Source: Lophium mytilinum
Taxonomy: Eukaryota; Ascomycota; Dothideomycetes; Mytilinidiales; Mytilinidiaceae
NCBI GenBank assembly: GCA_010093605.1
Contig: MU004187.1
Location: 687,383-751,382, forward strand
Length of the DNA: 64,000 nucleotides
Reading direction: 5' to 3'
In this document: positions 25,175-44,534 of the stretch, one piece after another
How the letters are laid out: the number at the start of each line of letters is the position of its first letter
Position numbering within the stretch: position 1 is the stretch's first letter
Translations under genes and position numbers: made by a program
The notes under the pieces: model-generated
What the model was told of the DNA's origin: nothing
Database searches by the model: none
What the model saw: only the letters and a program-made list of their open reading frames with translations

Positions 25175-27591
25175 ATGGCTGACCCACTATCCGTCACAGT
25201 TGGAATTTTGGCTCTCATTGGTGCAGCTGGGAAAACGGTCCAGGGATTGGAAAAAGCATGGGAACTTCGGCATATCGATGAAGACTTCATGGGATTGTCG
25301 AATCAGGTAAAAACGGATGAAACATTCTTCCATTCCATCTAAAATCTGTGCAGGTAACGGGACTAAAGACGCAACTCTATGCCGTCAAAAGTTCGCTCCA
25401 GCTGTTCGAAAGTAAAGATTTCAGTCACCACTGGCTTCGAGACAGCGTTCGCGACACAACGATTTTGTGTGGCCAAGCTGAGTCTGTGCTCGCAGAAATC
25501 GACAAGTTCGTTCAAGACATCACTTCCAAGAGCAGGCGAAGGTTGGGTGCCGCGGTCGAGAATAAGCCGTCCAAAAAGAGATGGATACGTCGGAAACCTA
25601 CATTGATTCGATTGTCAGCTAAAGTGACACCCATTGTAAACTCCCTAACTGTAGCAGCAGGCGTCCTTCGAGCTATTGCTTCAGACGAAAAGATCAACAA
25701 GATTGATCTGAAGGTCACTTTCCTTGCCGTTCAAAAGATCGAAATGCTACGGAATGCAAGCAAAACCGCAACGACAATTGAGAGCGCCATGCCATTGGAA
25801 AACCAACTCGAAGTGTCTATCCGTCAAGCTACAGAGCCTAGCGAAACCAGGATGGGATGCCCCGGCCAAGCCTCGCGGAGATCCTCCATAGATTCTTTCC
25901 ACTCAGCAGTCTCAAGTAGTTCAGAATCCACCCCACGATCACTTTCCAGCATTGTTTCTATCTCTGGGACTATGGGAGACGCGACCTGTGAGCCATTTTG
26001 TCCATGCCAGTGCCATGTCAGTAGCCAAGTAAGAACGCCGCAATGGGCCAAGCACATTCTAGGTACCATGACATTCCACGGCAATGGCTCAATATTCCTT
26101 AATCGACGACCTTGTAACAAGAGCTGTGGCCGGAGTGGGCCAACTTCGATTCAGTTCTCCTACTTCGCCCCTGCTTGGACACTTCTAACGTCGCTGAACA
26201 TTTTCGTCAAGGCACAGAGCATCCATGGTTTTAATATCCGTATGCCACGGGTCATTCCCTACAGTGCTACTGTATGGAGCATTATTGAGCTGGGAAACTT
26301 GCCGACTCTAAAGGAAATGGTCTCACGGAATGCCATATCACCGTATGATGTGAGCCCTTCTGGGATGTCGTTGTTGCAAGTTCGTGTCCTGCCACTTTAA
26401 CAACACTACCATTAAGATATCTAATGAATTATAATCTAGTGCGCCGCTATGAAAGGTCAAAACGATATTTATGAATACCTACTGTTTTTGAAGGCCGATC
26501 CCGACTTCCGAGATGGTACAGGAAAGTAAGTACTATCTAAAATGCGATGTCTGCGAGCTCAGCTGACTCAACGCAAATCAAGAGCAGCGAATCAGCCTGG
26601 AGTTGATCGAGCGCTCAGCGGCGTAGACTTGAATCGAACAGTCAGCAGTACAGCTCGAGCTGCTGCTTACAAGCTATTCATCAACACCAACACACTGGAT
26701 CAACAAGAGTTCAACTTTCTCCACCTGATCATTCTAGGCCTTCGAAGCCTAGACCTCGACCTTGTCCTTAGACAGTGTTTGAGTCCTCAATGTGACATCG
26801 ATGCGCCCGATGTCAATGGACGGACCCCGCTTATTTGGGCCGCTTGGAGAGGCGATATAGAAAGTGTGAATTTACTCATCTCGTCAAAGGCTGACGTCAA
26901 CAGAATCGACCATGAGGGCAACAGTGCATTGGCCAAGGCAGCAAAAGGCGGACACCTCGACTGCGTTCGCGAGCTCCTCCGGGCTGGCGCCTCAGTCAGT
27001 ATCGCAGATAACTGGGGCCAGCAACCCATTCATCACGCAAGCAGCAATAAAGCGAATGGTCTCCTGGTTGTGGATGAGCTGCTGGCGTGCGGCGCGGATG
27101 TAAATGCGCCCAGTGAGGAGGGCACGCCTTTACACGTTGCCGCAAATATGGGATCACTTGACACTGTGCGGCGCCTTCTTGATCGAGGCGCCAGAATCAA
27201 CGAACGAGATGCGGACGGCGACTCGCCTGCTATGATCGCACTACTGTGCTGGAACCAGTCTATATTCGTATACTTGGCGCAGAAAGGCGCAAAGCTGAAC
27301 CATATACGAACCACTGGAGAGAACATTCTTCACCTCGTCATATGGGCCGGATCCACTGATATCTGGAGCATGATTACCGAGAATGCCGGCAGTGAGCAAT
27401 TGAGCGGGGTTGATGCTGGAGCTCTCCATGCAAGCCATGACCTAAGGCACTGCTTCGAACATTGCCGAGATCTCTGGTATGCTGGGACAAGGGGAAAGAG
27501 AGAGGAAGAAGAGATCAGATTCCGGTGTATGATTGAGGCCTTCGAAACTAAGCCTATATCTTGCTTCGTAGGAAAAGGACGAGTTCCCTGA
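25175..27591 (+). CDS. STAND-like N-terminus, Cys-rich module and ankyrin repeats, 750 aa
   Basis: Exons are 25175-25306, 25354-26379, 26440-26525 and 26583-27591; the sum is 751 codons. Residues 1-150 (MADPLSVTVGILALIGAAGK, then GLKTQLYAVKSSLQLFESKD) match the helical N-terminal domain found on many fungal STAND/NLR and ankyrin proteins. Around residues 265-340 is a cysteine module, CEPFCPCQCH followed ~40 residues later by RRPCNKSCGRSG, and an aromatic segment (FSYFAPAWTLL). A first ankyrin-like unit (CAAMKGQNDIYEYLLFLKAD) is encoded by the small third exon. A run of about five ankyrin repeats follows at about residues 490-670 (NGRTPLIWAAWRGDIESVNL, EGTPLHVAANMGSLDTVRRL). There is no NACHT or NB-ARC ATPase between them, so this is a non-NTPase relative. 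An immune or incompatibility role is a family-level guess only. Confidence 0.88.
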
Positions 27592-31422: not shown

Positions 31423-32979
31423 TCAAACGAGCGCGGCAAGGGCCATCGCGCCGGCGAAGAACGCAGCGGCAGCGGGAGTGGCCCTGGCGTTGGCAGCTCC
31501 AGTGAACTGGCTAGGGGCCGGGGCAGTGGAAGATGGGCTCGTGTAGACGGGGATAGACGCCGACGGGACGAAAGTCGGGGCGACGTAGGTAGAGGGAGAA
31601 GACGCAGGGGGAGGAACCACGACCACGGGAGTGGATGCTGGAGGAGGCACCGGTGCGTAGGTAGATAGCGGAGGAACCACGACCGAGGGAGTGGATGCTG
31701 GAGGAGGTACCGGCGCGTAGGTTGATAGCGGAGGCACCACGACCGAGGGAGTGGATGCTGGAGGAGGCACCGGCGCGTAGGTGGATGGGGGAGCGACCGG
31801 GCTGGATGGAGGAGGAACCGGGACGAGGGTAGTCGCCGGAGGCGCCGGGTAGCTAGTCGGGCAGACCGTGGTGTAGATGCTTGTAGTGACCGTGGTGACC
31901 GTGGAGGTGTACGTAGTGCCAGACGAAGTAATCGTGATGACGCTAGTGCAGGGAACGGTCACGGTAGTGACGGTGGTGATCGTGGTGTAGACGGTCTCCG
32001 GTGGCGGGGGAGGAGTGTAAACCGGGGTAGACTCGCAGGGAGTGGTGGACGGGGGTGGCGGGGGAGGAGTGTAGACCGAAGTAGGGTAAAAGGTCGAGCT
32101 TGGCGGTGGGGGAGGAGTGAACACGCTGGAGTTCCAGGGAATGGTGTACGGTGGTGGGGGAGGAGTGAAGATGCTGGTCGGGTAGTAGACTGAGCTGGGC
32201 GTAGAGCTGGGAGTCTCGCTGGACTCGCAAGGAGTCGATGAAGGAGGTGGAGGAGGGGTGTAGACCGAAGTGGGGTAGTAGGTCGTGCTTGGTGGAGGTG
32301 GGGGAGGAGTGCTGGTCTCGCAAGGAGTCGAGCTCTCCGGCGGTGGGGGAGGAGGAGTGTAAATGGAAGACGGGGATGAAGTCGGGTAGTAGACTGAGGT
32401 AGTGGTCTCGTTGCAAGGAGTCGTGTACGGGGGAGGTGGGGGAGGCGTGTACACGCTGGTCGGGTAGTAAACCGAGCTGGGCGTAGAGCTTGGGGTTTCC
32501 GAGGTCTCGCAAGGAGTGGAAGACGGAGGTGGGGGAGGAGTGTACACGCTGGTCGGGTAGTAGACCGAGCTAGAGCTCCAGGTCGTTGGGTAGTAGACTG
32601 AGCTCCAGGTCGTTGGGTAGTAGACCGAGCTGGGCGTAGAACTGGGAGTGGACGACGGAGTTGGCGTCGGGGTCTCGCTGCTTTCGCATGGAGTAGACGA
32701 GGGGGTCGGAGTGGGAGTGTAGACCGACGAAGGAGTCGAAGACGGGGTGTAGACTGGCGATGGAGTCTCGGATGTCTCACATGGCGTCGACGATGGAGTC
32801 GGCACGTAGACGGACGAAGGAGTCGGCGTTGGTGTCTCCGAAGACTCACACGGCGTAGTAGGATAACCTCCAGTTGGGTAAGGGTGCTCTCCTCCTGGGT
32901 AGTAGCCTTCGCCTCCAGCGATAGGGGTGGCAACAGCAACGCCCAGCAGGGCCAAAAGCGAAAGTGTTACTTTAACCAT
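31423..32979 (-). CDS. Ser/Thr/Pro-rich GPI-type cell-wall protein, 518 aa
   Basis: It is a secreted, probably heavily O-glycosylated wall or adhesin-like protein. It is a single exon. A classic signal peptide (MVKVTLSLLALLGVAVATP) is followed by a short Gly/Tyr segment. Then about 320 residues of repeats follow, built from SSTPCETSETP and VYYPTSVYTPPPPP, so cysteines recur at regular intervals. A Thr/Val-rich block (TVTTVTVPCTSVITITSSG, about residues 340-385) resembles mucin-like wall proteins. Three exact-length 20-residue repeats (STYAPVPPPASTPSVVVPPL) follow. The C-terminus (a small-residue omega region NARATPAAAA, then FFAGAMALAALV) fits a GPI-anchor signal. Overlapping long open frames on both strands are by-products of the repeats. 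The exact function is unknown; repeat number is likely variable between strains. Confidence 0.88.
   Translation of the reverse strand: MVKVTLSLLALLGVAVATPIAGGEGYYPGGEHPYPTGGYPTTPCESSETPTPTPSSVYVPTPSSTPCETSETPSPVYTPSSTPSSVYTPTPTPSSTPCESSETPTPTPSSTPSSTPSSVYYPTTWSSVYYPTTWSSSSVYYPTSVYTPPPPPSSTPCETSETPSSTPSSVYYPTSVYTPPPPPPYTTPCNETTTSVYYPTSSPSSIYTPPPPPPESSTPCETSTPPPPPPSTTYYPTSVYTPPPPPSSTPCESSETPSSTPSSVYYPTSIFTPPPPPYTIPWNSSVFTPPPPPSSTFYPTSVYTPPPPPPSTTPCESTPVYTPPPPPETVYTTITTVTTVTVPCTSVITITSSGTTYTSTVTTVTTSIYTTVCPTSYPAPPATTLVPVPPPSSPVAPPSTYAPVPPPASTPSVVVPPLSTYAPVPPPASTPSVVVPPLSTYAPVPPPASTPVVVVPPPASSPSTYVAPTFVPSASIPVYTSPSSTAPAPSQFTGAANARATPAAAAFFAGAMALAALV
31610..31789. repeat. Three tandem 60-bp coding repeats
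   Basis: Three 60-bp units, each starting GGAGGAACCACGACC or a one-base variant, lie in the 3' part of the GPI-type gene and encode 20-residue Pro/Val/Ser repeats. Each unit is a whole number of codons, so copy-number change would keep the frame. Confidence 0.9.
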
Positions 32980-35190
32980 GATGATGGATCACAACAATGT
33001 GAGTTGGAGTTGACTGCGATTGAACGATGGTCGAGTCTGATATAAACGATGGAAACAGAAGAACCGTAGCGAGCGAGTTCTTGCTGGTTTGGGGGGTTGG
33101 GGGATGCGAACGGGTGGCTGGGTACCAAACAGATGCACTGGAGAAGAGCCTCAAATGTGGGAGGAGGTTGGCTCTATATGCACTTTGGAACCAGGCCAGG
33201 CAGGGCTCCGGATATCGGGCTGCCCCCGTGCTTGGAGCATGCTGCCGTGTTCAGGTTGCATGTGCCAAGGGAAGCTTGTGGGCTCTGACGTTGAGCCTCT
33301 GGTGAAGAAATAGTGATCTCCCTGGGTCCGGCTCCTTTGTGGAGGAGCTCCGGCATGACGGCCAGGCGCAAGCTGCCACATGGAGCGTAGGTTTCCGTGA
33401 GTACGGACAGAGCGGTCGTGGGTGCCCGGGCGGGTTGTGCTGGCGAGCGCGGGCCTCGTGGTGGTGAGAGTTCGTATCGATAGGCATAGGGCCAGGGGAG
33501 GATACGCTAGACTACTGCAGGCCGGCCGACGAACCAATTGCTGAGACAACGGTTGGCAGCCATGGCAACGCGGGCTGTAGGACGATGCATTGCGCAGGGA
33601 TAGCGGCAGGTACTGGGTAGCGTTGCCTGACTATCGCCCTGCCCCTCACGCCAATTGCGCGGGAAAACCTGCATGGCCAGTCCCTGCGGCCTGCAAGCCC
33701 AATAAATAAACCACTCATGAGATGCTGATGAAGAGGACATGGACTGAGGATGCTGGAGGCAGCAGAATCGAAGGAAATGCAGCACACTGACGCCGTACTC
33801 GCCAGCAAAACACACGATAGGACAGCGCCGCTCGCTGCATGAATTTAATAGTTACCCAAAGCAGTCACCCTCTGTCGTGTCTGGCGGCGCCGCGCTGGCG
33901 ATGATGCAACAGCCACCCACCAGCAAACGGTCGGCTGGATCTACCCATGTCTCGCACAGTTCACTGGGAGACACGTGCCTAGCCTTGTTTTTCCTCGGTC
34001 TTCGGGTGGCTGAAGTAAAAATAGATAGATAGACGGGTCGATCTTTGCCGGCAAGTGACAGGTGACAGCACCGTTGGGCTGCCCTCGTCCACGACACCCA
34101 TCACTGAAGCGTTCTGCGAGCAGCGATGGAGAAAGGAGGCCGGACAGGCGGTCAGGACAGGCACAGAAACCGCCTTTAGGCTCTGGTTGCTGTGCAACGC
34201 AGGCACTCCAGTCCGTCGAGCTGCAGGGCAGCACTGCTTCGACGGCCTCAGCTCCGGTGCACCATTCATCGGAGGCGGGCGGATCCAACATTCGACTCGA
34301 CCTGCTGCGAGAGCCAGCCCCAGCGTCGCTTGACTGGTGAGGTTGCATGGCGGGTTTATCGGAAAGCAAGGTTCAGGGGCGTGCATGGAGAAGTGGAGAA
34401 GAAGAAGGCTGGAAGAGGCAGAGGGCGGGGACGCTGAGGTTGGTCCCAGCCCGAGCCCCCGCCGAGTGGCTAGCACTCGTTGGCTCTCACCCCTCGCCGA
34501 AGAAACACCATCGTCCGCCATCACGATGCATCGCTAGGCACTCCTTTTCCCTAGCACATCGCGGCACACCACGCTGCTGTTTTGTGTTCCTGCGTCCGTC
34601 GTTGACAACCATGGTACCGCAGGAACCCGTCGTTCCAAGTGACGAAATTTCAGGAGACACCTTCAGAATAAGTCAGTGAACGAGAATTCGGCGGCCACTC
34701 CGTCCTGCAGCTCTCCGCTCGCCGCAGAGGTACATCCGACACATGTCTCTCAGCTCAGCTCTTCGATTCGCGTGCCTGAGGGCATTTGTGGGTCGTTCCT
34801 CTGTCGGCACGAGCAGTGTACCCCTGTGATTCGTCGCATCGCACTGAAGACCACATCCCTGAGTTTAAAACATTCCGCTCTCGCACTCTGCTAGCAGGGA
34901 TGATTTCTTCTGCTGCATCATGCTCAGTCAGATCGGCCGTCGACAGACCAGGCTCTCCACTTGCAGAGTTCTTCATGACTTCTGCCGTGTGGACGCCAGC
35001 CCAGAACCTAGGCCACCCCGCAGGAGTCAAGGAGTCGGCGGTACCTTATCGCCTCCACCAGGTGATAATTGCTGACTCTGTGTGTGCCGAGCAGCTTTTC
35101 GACTCGTCAAAGCCGCCCGAAAAAAACAATACCTCAGAAACCTGTTTGCTGGCACTGGCTGCTGTTCGCCTTATTGAAATGCCTCTTCGG
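32980..35190. other. 2.2-kb GC-normal region without a supportable gene
   Basis: This stretch lies between the GPI-type gene and the transposon block. It has many mutually overlapping open frames of 60-180 codons, but none has a family motif, signal peptide, membrane pattern or coherent exon chain. It is not RIP-like in composition. The left part presumably holds the promoter of the wall-protein gene. Confidence 0.5.
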
Positions 35191-35199
35191 GTCATTTCC
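35191..35199. other. Target-site duplication, left copy (outer transposon)
   Basis: GTCATTTCC immediately precedes the left terminal inverted repeat. The identical nonamer follows the right end at 41949-41957. Confidence 0.93.
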
Positions 35200-36391
35200 G
35201 GGCAACAGAATAGAATGCCAGTAGCTTGGCGCATTTTGTATTACAATGCCAGAAAACGCCATATAGACAATAAAGGACCGAGGCCATGCTAATACAGGCC
35301 TAGAAGCTAGCTTCTAGGCTTAATTAAGCACACCCCCCGTCCTCTACTATCTATAAGGCGTTTTCTAGCATTACATAACTATATATAGGCCTTAGCGTAG
35401 TATTAAACCTTAATTTTATAATATATATAATTAGCCGCTGCCGGCGCACCTCTATATAATATAAGAAAATTAATAAAATTAGCCTAGTATACTCTAACTA
35501 AGGGAAAATAGCCTATAGGACTGTAAAAACGGCCTATATTCTCTAGTATTAGCATCTAAATATATAGAAATAGATAAAAACTCTATTTCTCTATTAAAAA
35601 TTATCTAATTTTAATTAAAATTAAATAGTTAGAAAGCCTCTATACTTATACCTACTATATGTATTATACTCTATTTCTCTGCAGATTCTATACTTATTTC
35701 TAATAGTCGCCCTTTTATCTAAATAGTAGTTACTAAATTACTTTCTTTTATACTATATAGGGCCTAATTACTTCTTCTTTAAAGGTAGAAGAGAGGTAGA
35801 ACTTAGTAGAAGGTTATTAACTCTTATAGGCTATATTATATAATATTCTAGTAAGCCCTCTATAAGTATAGAGGCGTAGCTATTCCTCTATATATAGGTT
35901 TTATATATATAGCTGTAGTAGCTACCTACACGCCTACCTATAATATAGATAATAGCTATTATATAGTAGTAAGAAAACTAGTAATTTTAAAACTCTCTAT
36001 AGGTGTATTTCTTTCTATTAAGCCTTATAATATACACTATAGTATTAAAGTAATACTATACTATAGCCGCGTAGTTATAGTAATTAAATGCTATATATAT
36101 ATTTATCTAGTAGTAATAGCCTAAGGCCTTATAGAGGTTGCGCTTTAAAAGCTTCTACTTAAATAGTATAAAGAATAGAATATTACCCTATACTTTACCC
36201 GGCGGTAGCCTTATAAGCTTAATAGAATAAGCTATAGCTATAGTATATCTCTTAGCGCGTATCTCTATTACGCGGCCCTATAGCAATACTAAAAGGTGCA
36301 AAGTTAATAGCTCTTAGTTATTCCTAATTATTAAATTAAAGGACTTATTCGCGCTGCTTATAATATAGCCGAAGCGCATAGTAATAATATT

Positions 36392-39300
36392 AGGCAATAG
36401 AATAGAATACTAGTAGCTTAGCGTATTTTATATTATAATGCTAGAAAATACTATATAGATAATAAAGGACTAAGGCTATACTAATATAGGCCTAGAAGCT
36501 AGCTTCTAGGCTTAATTAAGTATACCCTCTATTCTCTACTATCTATAAGGTGTTTTCTAGTATTATATAACTATATATAGGCTTTAGTATAGTATTAAGG
36601 CCTTACTTTTATATATAGGCCTATATATAATATATAGCTTATTATACTACTAGTTATATTACTAGTATTCTTATAAGCTACTAGCCTATTAATACAGCCT
36701 TAAATATAGCAGGCTTCTAGCTGCATATTTTTAATAGATAGGCGCCTCTAAGGCCCTTCTAGAGGCGCTTAATAAGCGCCTAAACTATCTAAATAGGTAA
36801 TAGATATATAGGTTAAGTTATTAAAAATATAGGTAAGCTGCCACGCTATAGAAAGCTATAGAGAAGTAGATTTAATAGCTTTATAGGCCTTATCTAGTTA
36901 GAAGAGCTCTAGACTATATTTTATAGTAGCTATACTAAGAAATTATCTATCTATCTTTCTACACTATATTAGTAATAAAAAAGTAATAAAAAATTAATAG
37001 ATTTTAATACTATAAAGCTATAAAAACTTACTATATAGAGGCCCTTCTTATGCCTTTTTAAAGGCCTTAATTTATTCTTTCTAGCTTATATAGCCTCTTA
37101 TATAGCCTTACTATTATTCTATAGCCTTACTATTAAGCTTTATACTTTTTATTCTCTCTATTATTATTACTATAGAGTCCTCTAGTATTCCTTAGATTAG
37201 TAAGGCCTATAGTACCTTCTAGAAGATTAAGGAGATCTACTATAAGGTTACTATAGAGAAAGAATAGAGAATTAAGATTCTTATAAGTAATAGAACTTAA
37301 ATTAACCTATAATATAGTACTACTATGCTATACCTATAGTATCTCTATATAACTTAGTAAGTTAATAACACTATAGAGGTTTAAAAGCTTACTAATAAGT
37401 ATTACTATATTAGCGCGCCCTCTCTAAAGTGTATAGAGCAGTTATAATTAATATACTTAGTAGAGAATCTCCCTCTTCTTAGCTTTATTACCTATAAGAC
37501 GCTAATAGATAATATTTAGGCGCTGGCCTCTATATATCTAGAAGGCCTAATTAATAACTTCTAGGTGCGCCGGGCGTGCCTAATAATATATAGTAATAAT
37601 AAGAGGTCTATAGAGAATAACTATATAAAGATTCTAGAGTACTTAGAGCGCCTAGAGGTTAAAAATCCTAGTATTACTACTAATCTAGTCCTCTACCGCG
37701 GTGCCTTCTAGCGCGTCTTTATATACCCTAAGGAGAGTAGAACCTTTCTTATTTTTAGCCTTAACTAGCTTAGCTTTAATAGAATATATCTAAGAAATAG
37801 GTATAAGAATATAGTACTAATTATAATAGAAAGAGACTAGAATAATAAGGTTTATTTACTTACCTAGGCTATTATAGAGAGCAAGAATAATAAGACATAG
37901 GCATAGTTTATAAGGAAGCTAAAGAAAGCTCTACCGCAGCTTAATACGGCTGGAGTATAGACTATCTACTTATAAGTTTAATTTTTATTATTTATTAATA
38001 ATTTTTAAGTGGATATCTATGCATTTATTTATAGTAGGGATATTAAGTTAAAACGCGTTAATTTTAGTAAGAAATTATGTAGTTTATATATAAGGTTCTA
38101 TTATAATAAATAATATATAGATGTAAATAAAAATTATAATAGCCCCCTCTTAATTTCTATATACCTATTTATAATAGTATTTATACCTCTTAATTTCCTT
38201 CTATATACTTCTTAACGCCGCAGTTAATTTCTATACTAAATTTTATAGTTCCTGTAACTATACTATTCTTATTAATAGATCTATTAAAAATCTACCTACT
38301 TATACTATTTTTTTTATAGTAATTATAATAAAGGCCTCTAGAACACTATTAATAGCCTCTTTCCTTACTACTATAGTATCTACTGCGTTTAGCATCTATT
38401 AGAGAATATTAGGAAGCACTATAGAACTACCTACTTAAAGCTCTTCTTTAAGCTTACTCTTACTGCTAACTAGGTTAAATTTAACGCCTTAATAGCTAAG
38501 ATTATATTTCTTAGGCCTACCGCCGCAGCCTATATTAAGGCTATAGACTTATACTAATAGGTAATAAAGAATATTATTACTATATACTTTAGCTATATTA
38601 TAAGCGGCGCGAATAAGTCCTTTAATTTAATAATTAGGAATAACTAAGAGCTATTAACTTTGCACCTTTTAGTATTGCTATAGGGCCGCGTAATAGAGAT
38701 GCGCGCTAAGAGATATACTATAGCTATAGCTTATTCTATTAAGCTTATAAGGCTGCCGCCGGGTAAAGTATAGAGTAATATTCTATTCTTTATACTATTT
38801 AGGTAGAAGCTTTTAAAGCGTAACCTCTATAAGGCCTTAGACTATTACTACTAGATAAATATATATATAGTATTTAATTACTATAACTACACGGCTATAG
38901 TATAGTATTACTTTAACGCTATAGTGCATATTATAAGGCTTAATAGAAAGAAATACACCTATAGAGAGTTCTAAGATTACTAGTTTTCTTACTACTATAT
39001 AATAGCTATTATCTATATTATAGGCAGGCGTATAGGTAGCTACTGCGGCTATATATATAAAACCTATATATAGAGAAATAGCTACGCCTCTATACTTATA
39101 GAGGGCTTACTAGAATATTATATAATATAGCCTATAAGAGTTAATAACCTTCTACTAAGTTTTATCTCTCTTCTACCTCTAAAGAAGAAGTAATTAGGCC
39201 CTATATAGTGTAAAAGAAAGTAATTTAGTAACCGCTATTTAGATAGAAGGGCGACTATTAGAAATAAGTATAGAATCTATAGAGAAATAGGGTATAATGC

Positions 39301-39761
39301 GCGTAGTAGGTATAAGTATAAAGGCTTTCTAACTATTTAATTTTAATTAAAATTAGATAATTTTTAATAGAGAAATAGAGTTTTTATCTATTTCTATATA
39401 TTTAGATGCTAATACTAGGGAATATAGGCCGTTTTTGCGGTTCTATAGGCTATTTTCCCTTAGTTAGAGTATACTAGGCTAGTTTTATTAATTTCCTTAT
39501 ATTATATAGAGGTGCGCCGGCAGCGGCTAATTATATATATTATAAAATTAAGGTTTAATACTACGCTAAGGCCTATATATAGTTATATAATACTAGAAAA
39601 CACCTTATAGATAGTAGAGAATAGGGGGTATACTTAATTAAGCCTAGAAGCTAGCTTCTAGGCCTATATTAGTATAGCCTTAGTTCTTTATTATCTATAT
39701 AGCGTTTTCTAGTATTATAATATAAAATACGCTAAGCTACTAGTATTCTATTCTATTACCT
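36392..39761 (+). mobile_element. Inner Mutator-like transposon (E2), 3370 bp, inverted relative to the outer copy
   Basis: It starts AGGCAATAGAATAG and ends with the complement of AGGTAATAGAATAG, the RIP-mutated forms of the outer element's ends. It is flanked by AATAATATT (36383-36391) and AATAATGTT (39762-39770), a 9-bp duplication differing by one A/G transition. Its inverted repeats are 36392-36598 and 39555-39761. It is exactly as long as the reassembled outer copy. The outer copy's target site has an intact counterpart inside E2 at 38570-38578, just where the length arithmetic predicts it. The transposase relic reads on the plus strand. Confidence 0.93.
37430..37960 (+). pseudogene. 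RIP-inactivated MULE transposase fragment in E2
   Basis: Reading the plus strand gives a long coherent frame broken only by TAG codons, most in places where CAG or TGG would be expected before RIP. It includes KRSIENNYIKILEYLE, RVFIYPKESRTFLIF, SFNRIYLRNRYKNIVLI and NNKVYLLT. The last two occupy the place of the MULE transposase core (Leu-Asp-Gly-Thr-His-Leu-Lys, then the Asn-Asn segment). The expected first catalytic Asp reads Asn and the neighbouring Gly and Thr read Arg and Ile, all single RIP-type transitions. It cannot make a functional transposase. Confidence 0.75.
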
Positions 39762-40379
39762 AATAATGTTCTTTATTACCTATTAGTGTAAGTCTATAGC
39801 CTTAATATAGGCTATAGTAGTAGGCCTAAGAAATATAATCTTAGCTATTAAGGCGTTAAATTTAACCTAGTTAGCGGCAAGGGTAAGCTTAAAGAAGAGC
39901 TTTAAGTAGGCAGTTCTATAGTGCTTTCTAATATTCTCTAATAGATACTAAACGCAGTAGATACTATAGTAGTAAGAAAGAAGGCTATTAATAGTATTCT
40001 AGAGGCCTTTATTATAATTACTATAAAAAAAATAGTATAAGTAGGTAGATTTTTAATAGATTTATTAATAAAAATAGTGTAGTTGCGGGGACTATAAAAT
40101 TTAGTATAGAAATTAACTGCGGCGTTAAGGAGTATATAGAAGGAAATTAAGAGGTATAGATACTATTATAAACGGGCGTATAGAAATTAAGAGGGGGCTA
40201 TTATAATTTTTATTTATATCTATATATTATTTATTATAATAGAACCTTATGTATAAACTATATAATTTCTTACTAAAATTAACGCATTTTAACTTAATAT
40301 CTCTACTATAAATAAATGCATAGATATCTACTTAAAAATTATTAATAAATAATAAAAATTAAACTTATAAGTAGATAGT

Positions 40380-40910
40380 CTATACTCCGGCTGTATTAAG
40401 CTATAGTAGAGCTTTCTTTAGCTTTCTTATAAACTACGCCTATATCTTATTATTCTTGCTCTCTATAATAGCCTAGGCAAGTAGATAGACCTTATTATTC
40501 TAGTCTCTTTCTATTATAATTAGTACTATATTCTTATACCTATTTCTTAGGTATATTTTATTAAGGCCGAGCTAGTTAAAACTAAAGATAAGAAAGGTTC
40601 TACTCTTCTTAGAGTATATAAAGACGCGCTAGAAGGCACTATAGTAGAGAACTAAATTAGTAGTAATACTAGAATTTTTAACCTCTAGGCGCTCTAAGTA
40701 CTCTAGAATCTTTATATAGTTATTCTCTATAGACCTCTTATTATTGCTGCATATTATTAGGCGCGCCTAGCGCGCCTAGAAGTTATTAATTAGGCCTTCT
40801 AGGTATATAGAGGCTAGCACCTAAATATTACCTATTAGCGTCTTATAGGTAATAGAGCTAAGAAAAGAAAGATTCTCTATTAAGTATATTAATCGCGACT
40901 ACTCTATATA
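40380..40910 (-). pseudogene. RIP-inactivated MULE transposase fragment in E1
   Basis: This is the inverse-complement counterpart of 37430-37960, placed by exact offset (position p in E2 matches 41948 minus (p-36392)). The same fragment is recognisable with a different set of transitions and TAG stops. No functional product is possible. Confidence 0.7.
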
Positions 40911-41948
40911 CTTTAGAGGGGGCGCGCTAATATAGTAATACTTATTAGTAAGCTTTTAAACCTCTATAGTATTATTAACTTACTAAGTTATATAGAGACG
41001 CTATAGATATAGTATAGTAGCACTATATTATAGATTAATTTAAGTTCTATTACTTATAAGAATCTTAATTCTCTATCCTTTCTCTATAGTAACCTTATAG
41101 TAGATCTTCTTAATCTTCTAGAAGGTACTATAGGCCTTACTAACCTAAGAAATACTAGAGGACTCTATAGTAATAATAATAGAGAGAATAGAAAGTATAA
41201 AGCTTAATAGTAAGGCTATAGAATAATAGTAAAGCTATATAAGAGGCTATATAAGCTAGAAAGAATAAATTAAGGCCTCTAAAAAGGTATAAAAAGGGCC
41301 TCTATATAGTAAGTTCTTATAGCTTTATAGTATTAAAATCTATTAATTTTTTATTACTTTTTTATTACTAATATAGCGTAGAAAAATAGATAGATAATTC
41401 CTTAGTATAGCTACTATAAAATATAGTCTAGAGCTCTTCTAACTAGATAAGGCCTATAAAGCTATTAAATCTACTTCTCTATAGCTTTCTATAGTATAGT
41501 AGCTTACCTATATTCTTAATAACTTAATCTATATATTTATTACCTATTTAGGTAGTTTAAGTACTTATTAAGCGCCTCTAGAAGAGCCTTAGAGGCGCCT
41601 ATCTATTAGAAATATATAGCTAGAAGCCTACTACATTTAAGGCTATATTAATAGGCTAGTAGCTTATAAGAATACTAGTAATATAACTAGTAGTATAATA
41701 AGCTATATATTATATATAGGCCTATATATAAGAGTAAGGCCTTAATACTATACTAAGGCCTATATATAGTTATGTAATACTAGAAAACACCTTATAGATA
41801 GTAGAGAACGGGGGGTATACTTAATTAAGCCTAGAAGCTAGCTTCTAGGCCTATATTAGTATGGCCTCGGTCCTTTATTATCTATGTGGCGTTTTCTGGC
41901 ATTATAATATGAAATGCGCCAAGCTACTGGCATTCTATTCTGTTGCCC

Positions 41949-41957
41949 GTCATTTCC
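41949..41957. other. Target-site duplication, right copy (outer transposon)
   Basis: GTCATTTCC follows the right end CTATTCTGTTGCCC directly and matches 35191-35199. The next 390 bp, up to the stop of Dml1, hold nothing I can name. Confidence 0.93.
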
Positions 41958-42347: not shown

Positions 42348-44534
42348 TCAATCGTCATCATCACTGTCCGTCCCACTGTCCCAGCCTTCTTCATACTCCT
42401 CCGCAATCATAGCCAGCCCGTTCGAAATCGCTTCCCTCTCTTCCACACTCACCAACCGTCTCACAAGCTGCTCTGTAGCCCTCACCTGCTCAGCAACAGA
42501 AGCACACGTCGTCAAGCCCGTGTACACTGCTACCTTTTTAGCCTGACCATCGCCTACGTTGATGATGGATGGGAAGCTATCGAGAAGCGGGAACAGCAGC
42601 GAGGAAGAGTATCTGTAGCCGAGTTAGATCGTGAGTGAATGCCCAATCAAGTAGTGACCAAGATGTTGTAGATGCAGGTACCACGTAAGAATGTAGCCTG
42701 TAACCTCTGTCGACCGACGGCCTCGCGCTCTACAAGGCTGTAACCAAGAAACAAGATATAAGACATACCTCTGAACAATTGGACCACTGTGAAACCTATC
42801 GTGCATGTCTCGACCCTCGCTTCCTTCAGCGATACTCCAAGCCCCTCTGCTCGACTCCGCCCGCCCGAAGATATGATCTTTCTTCCGCCGTGCACCGCGC
42901 TGTCGGACACCAGGTAACTCCTTCGTCGATAAATCAGCATCGAAGTCATTGAGACGGTCGTCCTTAAAATCGGCCTCATCCTGACGTGTCAGCACCGCGC
43001 CGACCTTGTCAGCCTGCGCTGCCTCCGTCACGACTTTATCCTCCAAGACATCCGGGTCCGCAACACTGAACTCCAACTTCGCAATCCGCCTCTTCCCAGA
43101 ATTGTTAATTGTTTCCTCAAGTTCGTTCAAGGACCCTCTCTGCCCGTCTCCCGCCCTTAGCCTCGAGGGCAGCGTCACACTCTCGAACGCCAGAGCATGG
43201 ACTGCAGACGTCTCCCACATCGAGCTCGCGTCAAGCGACAAGTACGACGGCGTTTTCAACGGTGTGTTCGCGACGGGAATGTACACTGAGGCCTGTTCTG
43301 AGATTTCGTAGAGAGAGCGAGCAGAGTTGGCTAGGCGGGTCAATCGCTTCTCGCGGGAGACGGGTTCATCGCCGCCTTGCTCGAGGCCCCAGACCCAGAT
43401 GCCTAATTTGCCGAACTCGTCGCGGAGGCGCTCTGTCCAGCGGGCTGTCCAGCCACCCCAAGCGTCGGTGACGGAGGCGAGGAGTTGGAGGCCCTGGAGG
43501 GAGTCGCATTCTTCTATGAAAGGGCGGAGGTCGCTGATTTGATTTGATCAGCTTTAGTTGAAGTGTGAAGTGATGGCGGAGTCAAAATGAAGCAGTGCCT
43601 ATCCTCTGCTTTCTCTTTCTGTTTGGAAGAAAATGGTAGTTGTACTCACCGATCAAGTAAATCCTCCTCTCTGTCCAACGTCCCGAATAGATCTGCGCCC
43701 ACATCCCACTTTTCCCAGGCTCTGTGAGTTGCATCTCCGACATCGAATTCAGATAGTTGGACCAGGGACTTTGGATGATAGTAAACGCGCGCATAGTCAG
43801 ACCAGTACCGCACCGAAGCAGCCGTGAGCGGAGGTGGTGTTAGACCAGCATCAAGATGGACCTGATATGGGGAGGGCGGAATGGGCGGCGCGTGACGGAT
43901 GATTGGGGGAGAGGACCTATGTTTATAAAATCAAACCCATGCTTTCTATGAGGAACATATGAGTGCGGATGCTATCGATAAAGACCAGTTGATGATTTTG
44001 GCAAATGAAATAGATAAACATCGTAGCCGGAAGACAATGAGAATAATCTCGACTTACCAAACACCCCTCCCACCCGTAGATCCCTCATCCTCAACTTCAT
44101 AAAGCGCATTCACTTTCCTCAAGCTCCCAAACGAGCCCTTGAGATCATAAACTAGAGCGCGCGGTGTGAACGTCTCGGACCCATCGGGTGCGATGCCAGG
44201 CCGAAAGTGGATATCATGATTGACTGGCGACTCTTCCTCGGGTGGGTATGTGAAGTATGATTCCTTTCATCGCCTTTTGTTAGAACGGTTTCGGAGAGAA
44301 GATGAATTTTGGAATTGAAGTGAATTGTGGAGGTGGATATAGAGTTGACAACGTGGTAAAAAAGTTTTGAGAAGTGCGTAGGGTCTGGTGACGCCCTCAA
44401 TGGAAGAGATTTGCAGCTTATGAAAGACCGGGTAATGATAGTCGTGCGAATGGGGGACATACCTGTGTATTCCAGAAATGCGTCCCTAGATAGTTGGCCT
44501 GTTGCCCGAATTGGAGCGTCACTATTTCATGCAT
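42348..44534 (-). CDS. DML1: Dml1/Misato tubulin-like protein, 524 aa, five exons
   Basis: Dml1 is a tubulin/FtsZ-related protein needed for mitochondrial DNA inheritance and partitioning in yeast; animal Misato acts in mitochondrial shape and spindle assembly. Exons are 44534-44463, 44263-44058, 43916-43650, 43533-42769 and 42612-42348; the sum is 525 codons. The start [20 protein letters not shown] is diagnostic (it parallels the beta-tubulin N-terminus). It is followed by [40 protein letters not shown] and [16 protein letters not shown]. Later hallmarks are [18 protein letters not shown] and [16 protein letters not shown]. The C-terminus is acidic (SGTDSDDD). The first intron is long for this window (199 nt). 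Although the stop lies ~400 bp from the RIP block, the coding sequence shows no RIP damage. Confidence 0.97.

Follow-up and report, generated by a model that had tools for sequence, protein, structure and literature searches.

What kind of event placed two long, interleaved inverted repeats side by side in the genome of the dothideomycete Lophium mytilinum, and how does the heavy mutation of these repeats relate to it in time? The locus occupies positions 35200 to 41948 of the window, i.e., the whole 64,000-nt stretch that was analysed (contig MU004187.1 of assembly GCA_010093605.1, positions 687,383 to 751,382 of the forward strand). A first-pass annotation had described it as a 3370-bp Mutator-like element (MULE) inserted into a reversed copy of itself, and this description, including the ends and the 9-bp target duplications, proved correct to the base. 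We are highly confident in the joint reading that a MULE became nested in reverse orientation inside a sister copy, and that mutation of the type left by repeat-induced point mutation (RIP) came afterwards, at least in part. Nothing found in this analysis contradicts the nesting.

The inner copy (36392..39761, plus strand) is complete at 3370 bp and lies in opposite orientation to the outer copy. The outer copy is in two pieces with the coding strand minus in both, one of 1192 bp holding the 3' part of the transposase gene (35200..36391) and one of 2178 bp holding the 5' part (39771..41948), which rejoin to 3370 bp, the same length that the annotation had calculated. On both sides of the outer copy stands GTCATTTCC (35191..35199 and 41949..41957; 9/9 identical). 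The inner copy is flanked by AATAATATT on the left (36383..36391) and AATAATGTT on the right (39762..39770), which are identical at 8 of 9 bases and have A and G, respectively, at the differing position. Thus a complete copy with its flanking target duplication interrupts a second copy of the element that is complete but for the break. Comparing the outer copy base by base with the reverse-complemented inner copy gave 216 differences (6.4%; G/A 65, C/T 55, A/G 49, T/C 47) and no transversions, and a separate aligner run likewise gave no gaps, which is the end-to-end alignment with almost only C/T and G/A differences that had been predicted.

The proposed A-B'-A'-B layout, with inverted repeats of 1.2 and 2.2 kb, was recovered by an independent repeat search as two pairs of inverted arms: 36393-38579 with 39761-41947 (2187 nt, 93%) and 35201-36391 with 38570-39760 (1191 nt, 94%). 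The two pairs overlap by exactly 9 bp at 38570..38578, and this overlap is the unbroken counterpart, within the inner copy, of the outer copy's split target site, at the position where the annotation had placed it. The site reads AATATTATT in the inner copy, in the outer copy (left duplication) and in three near copies elsewhere in the genome (C6, C10a and C5). Chance inverted repeats were rejected as an explanation by judgement, on the grounds of the kilobase arms, the duplications exactly at the alignment ends and the exact 9-bp overlap.

Both copies have terminal inverted repeats of about 225 bp, i.e., the long terminal inverted repeats expected of a MULE. Those of the outer copy (35200..35425, plus; 41723..41948, minus) are lightly mutated at their ends, and those of the inner copy (36392..36617, plus; 39536..39761, minus) are heavily mutated there. 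Each terminal repeat also holds an imperfect internal palindrome (76-80%, arms of 67-70 bp; e.g., 35245-35372), so that the end could fold back on itself.

Repeats of 3.4 kb commonly cause misassembly, and this locus is known from the assembly alone rather than from reads, so two dispersed copies might have been collapsed or chimerically joined. However, the inner and outer copies are 216 differences apart, and each is at least 193 differences away from any of the other near copies, which means that neither window copy duplicates C6, C10a or C5. The target duplications exactly at the ends of both copies, as well as the heavily mutated ends that are unique to the inner copy, also speak against an assembly artefact, which we find hardly credible.

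The assignment to the MULEs comes from the transposase. In the unmutated cousin L013 (C10:1913354-1916735; GC 0.52, perfect GTACAACAT duplication) the MULE transposase domain PF10551 is split across two open reading frames (ORFs), with the part in ORF1 above the cut-off (E 1.6e-9) and the remainder in ORF2 below it (0.0064). A SWIM zinc finger was found above the cut-off, and a match to PF03108 (MuDR DNA-binding) below it. The two ORFs match both window copies, stops included, at 49-54% identity. In the inner copy, the N-terminal part of the transposase lies at 37097..37966 (plus; 52% to ORF1 residues 10-299) and the C-terminal part at 38019..39337 (plus; two ORF2 matches, 51% each). The outer copy has the N-terminal part at 40407..41228 (minus; 54% to ORF1 residues 15-288), followed by ORF2 before the break at 39792..40321 (minus; two matches, residues 1-79 and 91-177) and after the break at 35624..36376 (minus; residues 190-440). 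As the outer ORF2 matches resume across the insertion, the inner copy broke the outer transposase between ORF2 residues 177 and 190. The six frames of the inner copy contain 87-149 stops, and the longest open stretch is 89 aa. Collectively, PF10551 and the SWIM finger in the unmutated cousin, and the remnants of its protein in the window copies, support a Mutator-like identity, in agreement with the name first given to the element.

Transversions between C6 and the cousin lean towards the third codon position, with 13, 14 and 25 at the three positions of ORF1 (301 each) and 23, 10 and 38 in the counted stretch of ORF2 (347 each), as would be expected if coding function had been maintained during part of the divergence of the two lines. 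In the whole genome, PF10551 gave 17 matches (20 candidates scored), and the window copies are not among them. Stops are carried by 15 of the 17; the best match, C2:1523762-1524052, is free of them, and such a match elsewhere indicates that other MULE families exist in the genome.

To place the two copies within their family, we scanned the 43.18-Mb genome (24 contigs) with the 227-bp element end, which gave at least 37 matches, some of them being the internal palindrome of the end on the other strand. Ten further elements were retrieved in 16 stretches, namely the three near copies and seven cousins. Identity in the ten pairs among inner, outer, C6, C10a and C5 is 92.5-94.6%, with at most one transversion per pair, and C6, C10a and C5 are uninterrupted at the homologous site, each with its own perfect 9-bp duplication. 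Copies with the same ends and duplications of about 9 bp, which the annotation had expected from related genomes, were thus found within the same genome. In the best parse, each of the 12 elements is flanked by direct repeats of 9-11 bp, a length within the 8-11 bp of MULEs. The repeats are 9 bp in 9 of the 12 (one mismatch in the inner copy), 10/10 in C5b and C20, and 10/11 in C2b; as the parse scanned different offsets and its score favours longer repeats, the duplications of C5b, C20 and C2b may equally be 9 bp long. The least mutated ends read GGGCAACAG or GGGCAATAG. A general preference for AT-rich targets was not supported, since among the 12 duplications only that of the inner copy is nearly all A/T.

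Two characters that are independent of RIP order the near copies. A 19-bp tandem unit is present in C6 and the cousin and lost in inner, outer, C10a and C5, and a C-to-A change is common to inner, outer and C5 only, where the cousin has C. These nest without conflict as C6, then C10a, then the group of inner, outer and C5, which places the host (outer) and the guest (inner) in the same youngest group together with C5. We also considered the inner copy as a local duplicate of the outer one and rejected this, as the 216 inner-outer differences compare with 212 between inner and C6 and 227 between inner and C5. The timing of the mutation is recorded in the inner target duplications, which differ at one C preceding A in the orientation of the inner copy, being T in one and C in the other. 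This position is C in the cousin and T in inner, C6, C10a and C5. The two target copies were identical when they were made and now differ; at least one C-to-T change therefore occurred after nesting.

In the course of events that we propose, a 3370-bp MULE whose terminal inverted repeats measure about 225 bp landed at GTCATTTCC, and a sister copy of the same burst inserted, reversed, into the transposase gene of this outer copy, duplicating 9 bp. C-to-T mutation of the RIP type has since destroyed the ORFs in the two nested elements and has also struck C6, C10a and C5 throughout, with part at least of this mutation following the nesting. We infer that the movement was cut-and-paste by the family's own transposase and that RIP was the mutator. 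The nest might instead have formed elsewhere, with the 6.75-kb composite later moving as a unit by its outer ends, and such late movement would agree with the perfect duplication around the outer copy and with the light mutation of its ends. However, no second composite was seen, the homologous site is intact in C6, C10a and C5, no other pair among the 37 end matches listed lies 6.75 kb apart, and an extra step is needed; movement of the composite is therefore improbable.

Among the 12 elements no further self-nest was recognised (C1 was looked at minus its middle ~7.8 kb). The near copy C5 is split by a long terminal repeat (LTR)-type insert of about 7.7 kb with a 5-bp duplication (C5, about 853296-861024), and the LTR start of this insert has 7 matches in the genome, of which two are its own and two lie inside the span of the C1 cousin. 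Three cousins have ends 10-27 kb apart (C20:311248-331146, C17:1238250-1248590 and C1:3456215-3483239), apparently as ordinary nests of transposable elements (TEs) stretched by other insertions. Going by the BLAST layout, with the inserts themselves not analysed, C20 and C17 are one interrupted element each. The widely spaced ends on C5, C20, C17 and C1 had been candidates for extra self-nests; C5 has an LTR-like insert, C20 and C17 read as interrupted single elements, and C1 was covered in part. For random insertions of 3370-bp sisters into 43.18 Mb, the chance of one sister inside another is about 0.08% for five insertions and about 0.5% for twelve. Given many families, one self-nest somewhere in a genome is unremarkable.

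The differences between outer and inner look like RIP, judged by their type, context and distribution. All 216 of 216 are transitions, and the share of C mutated relative to the cousin depends on the following base (CA 0.80-0.87, CG 0.68-0.71, CC 0.24-0.25, CT 0.13-0.15), with CA well over CT. The mutation is confined to the repeats, in that 35200-41948 forms an AT-rich island with GC of 0.26-0.32 (750-bp steps) compared to 0.53 elsewhere in the window, and the adjoining DNA has GC of 0.45-0.58 and mostly normal RIP indices. The genome gave 152 matches to the HET domain, compared to 0 in 14 control genomes (those named being bacteria and archaea). This domain is typical of filamentous ascomycetes, and together with the mutation pattern it points to such a fungus as the host. 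Four matches to the cytosine methyltransferase domain PF00145, at three loci, are candidates for the enzyme side of RIP (RID or DIM-2).

Several points limit this account of the mutation or its timing. The cousin that served as context reference carries 227-228 transversions, so the context rates include ordinary divergence, and as CpG is mutated nearly as much as CpA, deamination of methyl-CpG may contribute. The unique windows 35000-35099 and 42449-42949 exceed the TA/AT threshold for RIP, and at 31500-33000 both RIP-index thresholds are exceeded (TA/AT 1.77-4.20) at a GC of 0.58-0.64. As some unique windows exceed the thresholds, the RIP index alone is no proof. No unmutated member of the near group was seen among the retrieved copies, and RIP may already have touched the outer copy before nesting. 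The stretch at 31500-33000 covers a 518-aa ORF (31423-32979) with no Pfam match, and its index signal is probably due to coding or codon composition.

The copies differ in how their ends are mutated. The inner copy is the sole copy of the five with its ends in a repeat, and the other four adjoin unique DNA, which makes the nest a natural control for an edge effect of RIP. The terminal 115 bp at the two ends together have 46 variable sites, of which inner is mutated at 46, outer at 12, C6 at 6, C10a at 2 and C5 at 13. A Fisher value computed on such selected sites treats them as independent and carries little weight. Because these sites were chosen using the copies themselves, we recounted at sites where C or G is present in two or more of the remaining four copies, and obtained 43/110 for inner, 9/108 for outer, 3/107 for C6, 2/105 for C10a and 10/108 for C5. 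The count is 21/55 and 22/55 at the two inner ends, and between 1 and 6 of 52-54 at each of the remaining eight. At 115-230 bp from the end the inner copy still exceeds the others (16/77 vs. 3-8 of 74-77), it falls below them at 230-345 bp (4/64 vs. 7-13 of 68-71), and past 345 bp the five copies are alike (76-92 of 798-805). When polarised by the cousin, the contrast reaches about 150 bp and vanishes at 150-200 bp.

We lean towards a rule by which RIP spares a repeat's terminal ~115-150 bp when they adjoin unique DNA and not when they adjoin repeated DNA, with the contrast being that of one embedded copy against four. The simplest reading is that nesting removed the edge shelter of the inner copy. 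The light ends of the non-nested copies might also result from transposition selecting intact ends, as the ends are required for movement and a RIPed copy could still be mobilised in trans as long as its ends are good. However, the five copies are mutated almost independently of one another over 440 variable transition sites (phi -0.14 to 0.17, 0.02 for inner-outer), as expected if the copies were mutated after landing, and the inner copy moved too, yet its ends are the most mutated. The phi set omits one transversion column and the gap columns, and sites mutated in all five copies are outside its reach; such sites could represent shared ancestry. On balance we regard selection of intact ends as rather unlikely, and RIP sparing the edges as the better explanation.

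In the six mutated cousins, GC rises from 200-300 bp towards the outermost 50 bp at all 12 of 12 ends, with only a modest rise at the ends of C2b and C5b, and the base composition of the cousins before RIP may contribute to this. The LTR insert in C5 was considered as a second edge test, and none of its 7 matches has an end clearly adjoining unique DNA. In PMC4858203, one construct is noted to carry few mutations over its first ~130 bp, but this construct has partial homology. In the literature covered, consisting of titles and abstract openings with subscription papers mostly outside, no RIP edge contrast was found, nor did the passages of PMC12543289, PMC10787394 and PMC11969663 give one, which is weak evidence of absence. 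In the passages of PMC4858203, RIP in filamentous ascomycetes produces C-to-T changes across the extent of the repeat and few outside, as here; our locus differs in that CpG is nearly as affected as CpA, and in the sparing of the outer ~115-150 bp beside unique DNA. The same passages report that single-copy DNA between closely placed repeats in Neurospora can be strongly mutated, which means that the mutated unit can exceed the repeat (PMC4858203).

The element resembles fungal MULEs near Hop1 of Fusarium oxysporum, such as VdMULE1-3 of Verticillium dahliae, in its size (3.4-3.6 kb in those elements), PF10551, terminal inverted repeats, short target duplication and ends beginning with GG. This likeness is one of size, domain and ends. 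According to the passages cited, target duplications are 8 bp for VdMULE1 and 8-11 bp for MULEs generally (PMC3441728, PMC6446971). The inverted repeats of about 225 bp are longer than those of VdMULE, given as 73-86 bp in Table 1 and 53-86 bp in the text of the part cited (PMC3441728), and than the 85-99 bp of the Hop "Fungi" sub-group, another sub-group that includes fungi having 30-220 bp (passages of PMC3441728, PMC6446971). The ends, GGGCA, depart from the GGNAA consensus given for VdMULE and Hop1 in PMC3441728.

Nested insertion is also known from other MULEs. In maize and rice, passages of PMC3903597 report that over one third of coding MULEs are disrupted by nested insertion, that inserts in maize MULEs are mostly LTR retrotransposons, and that coding MULEs are themselves inserted into other TEs in 9% (maize) and 7% (rice) of cases. 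In the present nest, one and the same MULE is both host and guest. Aphid ghost MULEs are located where successive elements inserted into each other, and neither terminal repeats nor target duplications were recognised for the most complete of them (PMC6446971); here, in contrast, both insertions are resolved to the base. A fungal MULE inside its own copy was not found in the titles and abstract openings covered, which again is weak evidence of absence. The self-nested MULE at base resolution is a tidy, unusually clean case with no new mechanism. The annotation was right about the clean nest and overstated its interest, as nested insertion is of a known kind, the absence of indels agrees with a recent burst, and the differences look like RIP.

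Mu killer of maize likewise consists of an inverted duplication of a MULE transposase gene (PMC3440606). The present locus, in contrast, arose when a full copy inserted and duplicated its target. If transcribed, its 1.2- and 2.2-kb inverted repeats, interleaved as they are, would form a long hairpin that might trigger RNA silencing of the family. Against this, the copies are heavily mutated and 6.4% apart, and RIP explains the inactivation without silencing, so that a silencing hairpin seems very improbable.

Apart from the nest, the window contains an ankyrin-repeat ORF of 349 aa at 26542-27591 (plus), about 7.6 kb away.

The self-nest works as a clock, as it places transposition before at least some of the RIP. 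The edge rule, if true, would follow from mutation needing homologous pairing on both sides of a site. With the clock and the embedded control together, the extent of homology needed on either side of a site for RIP becomes testable by genome comparison and simple constructs.

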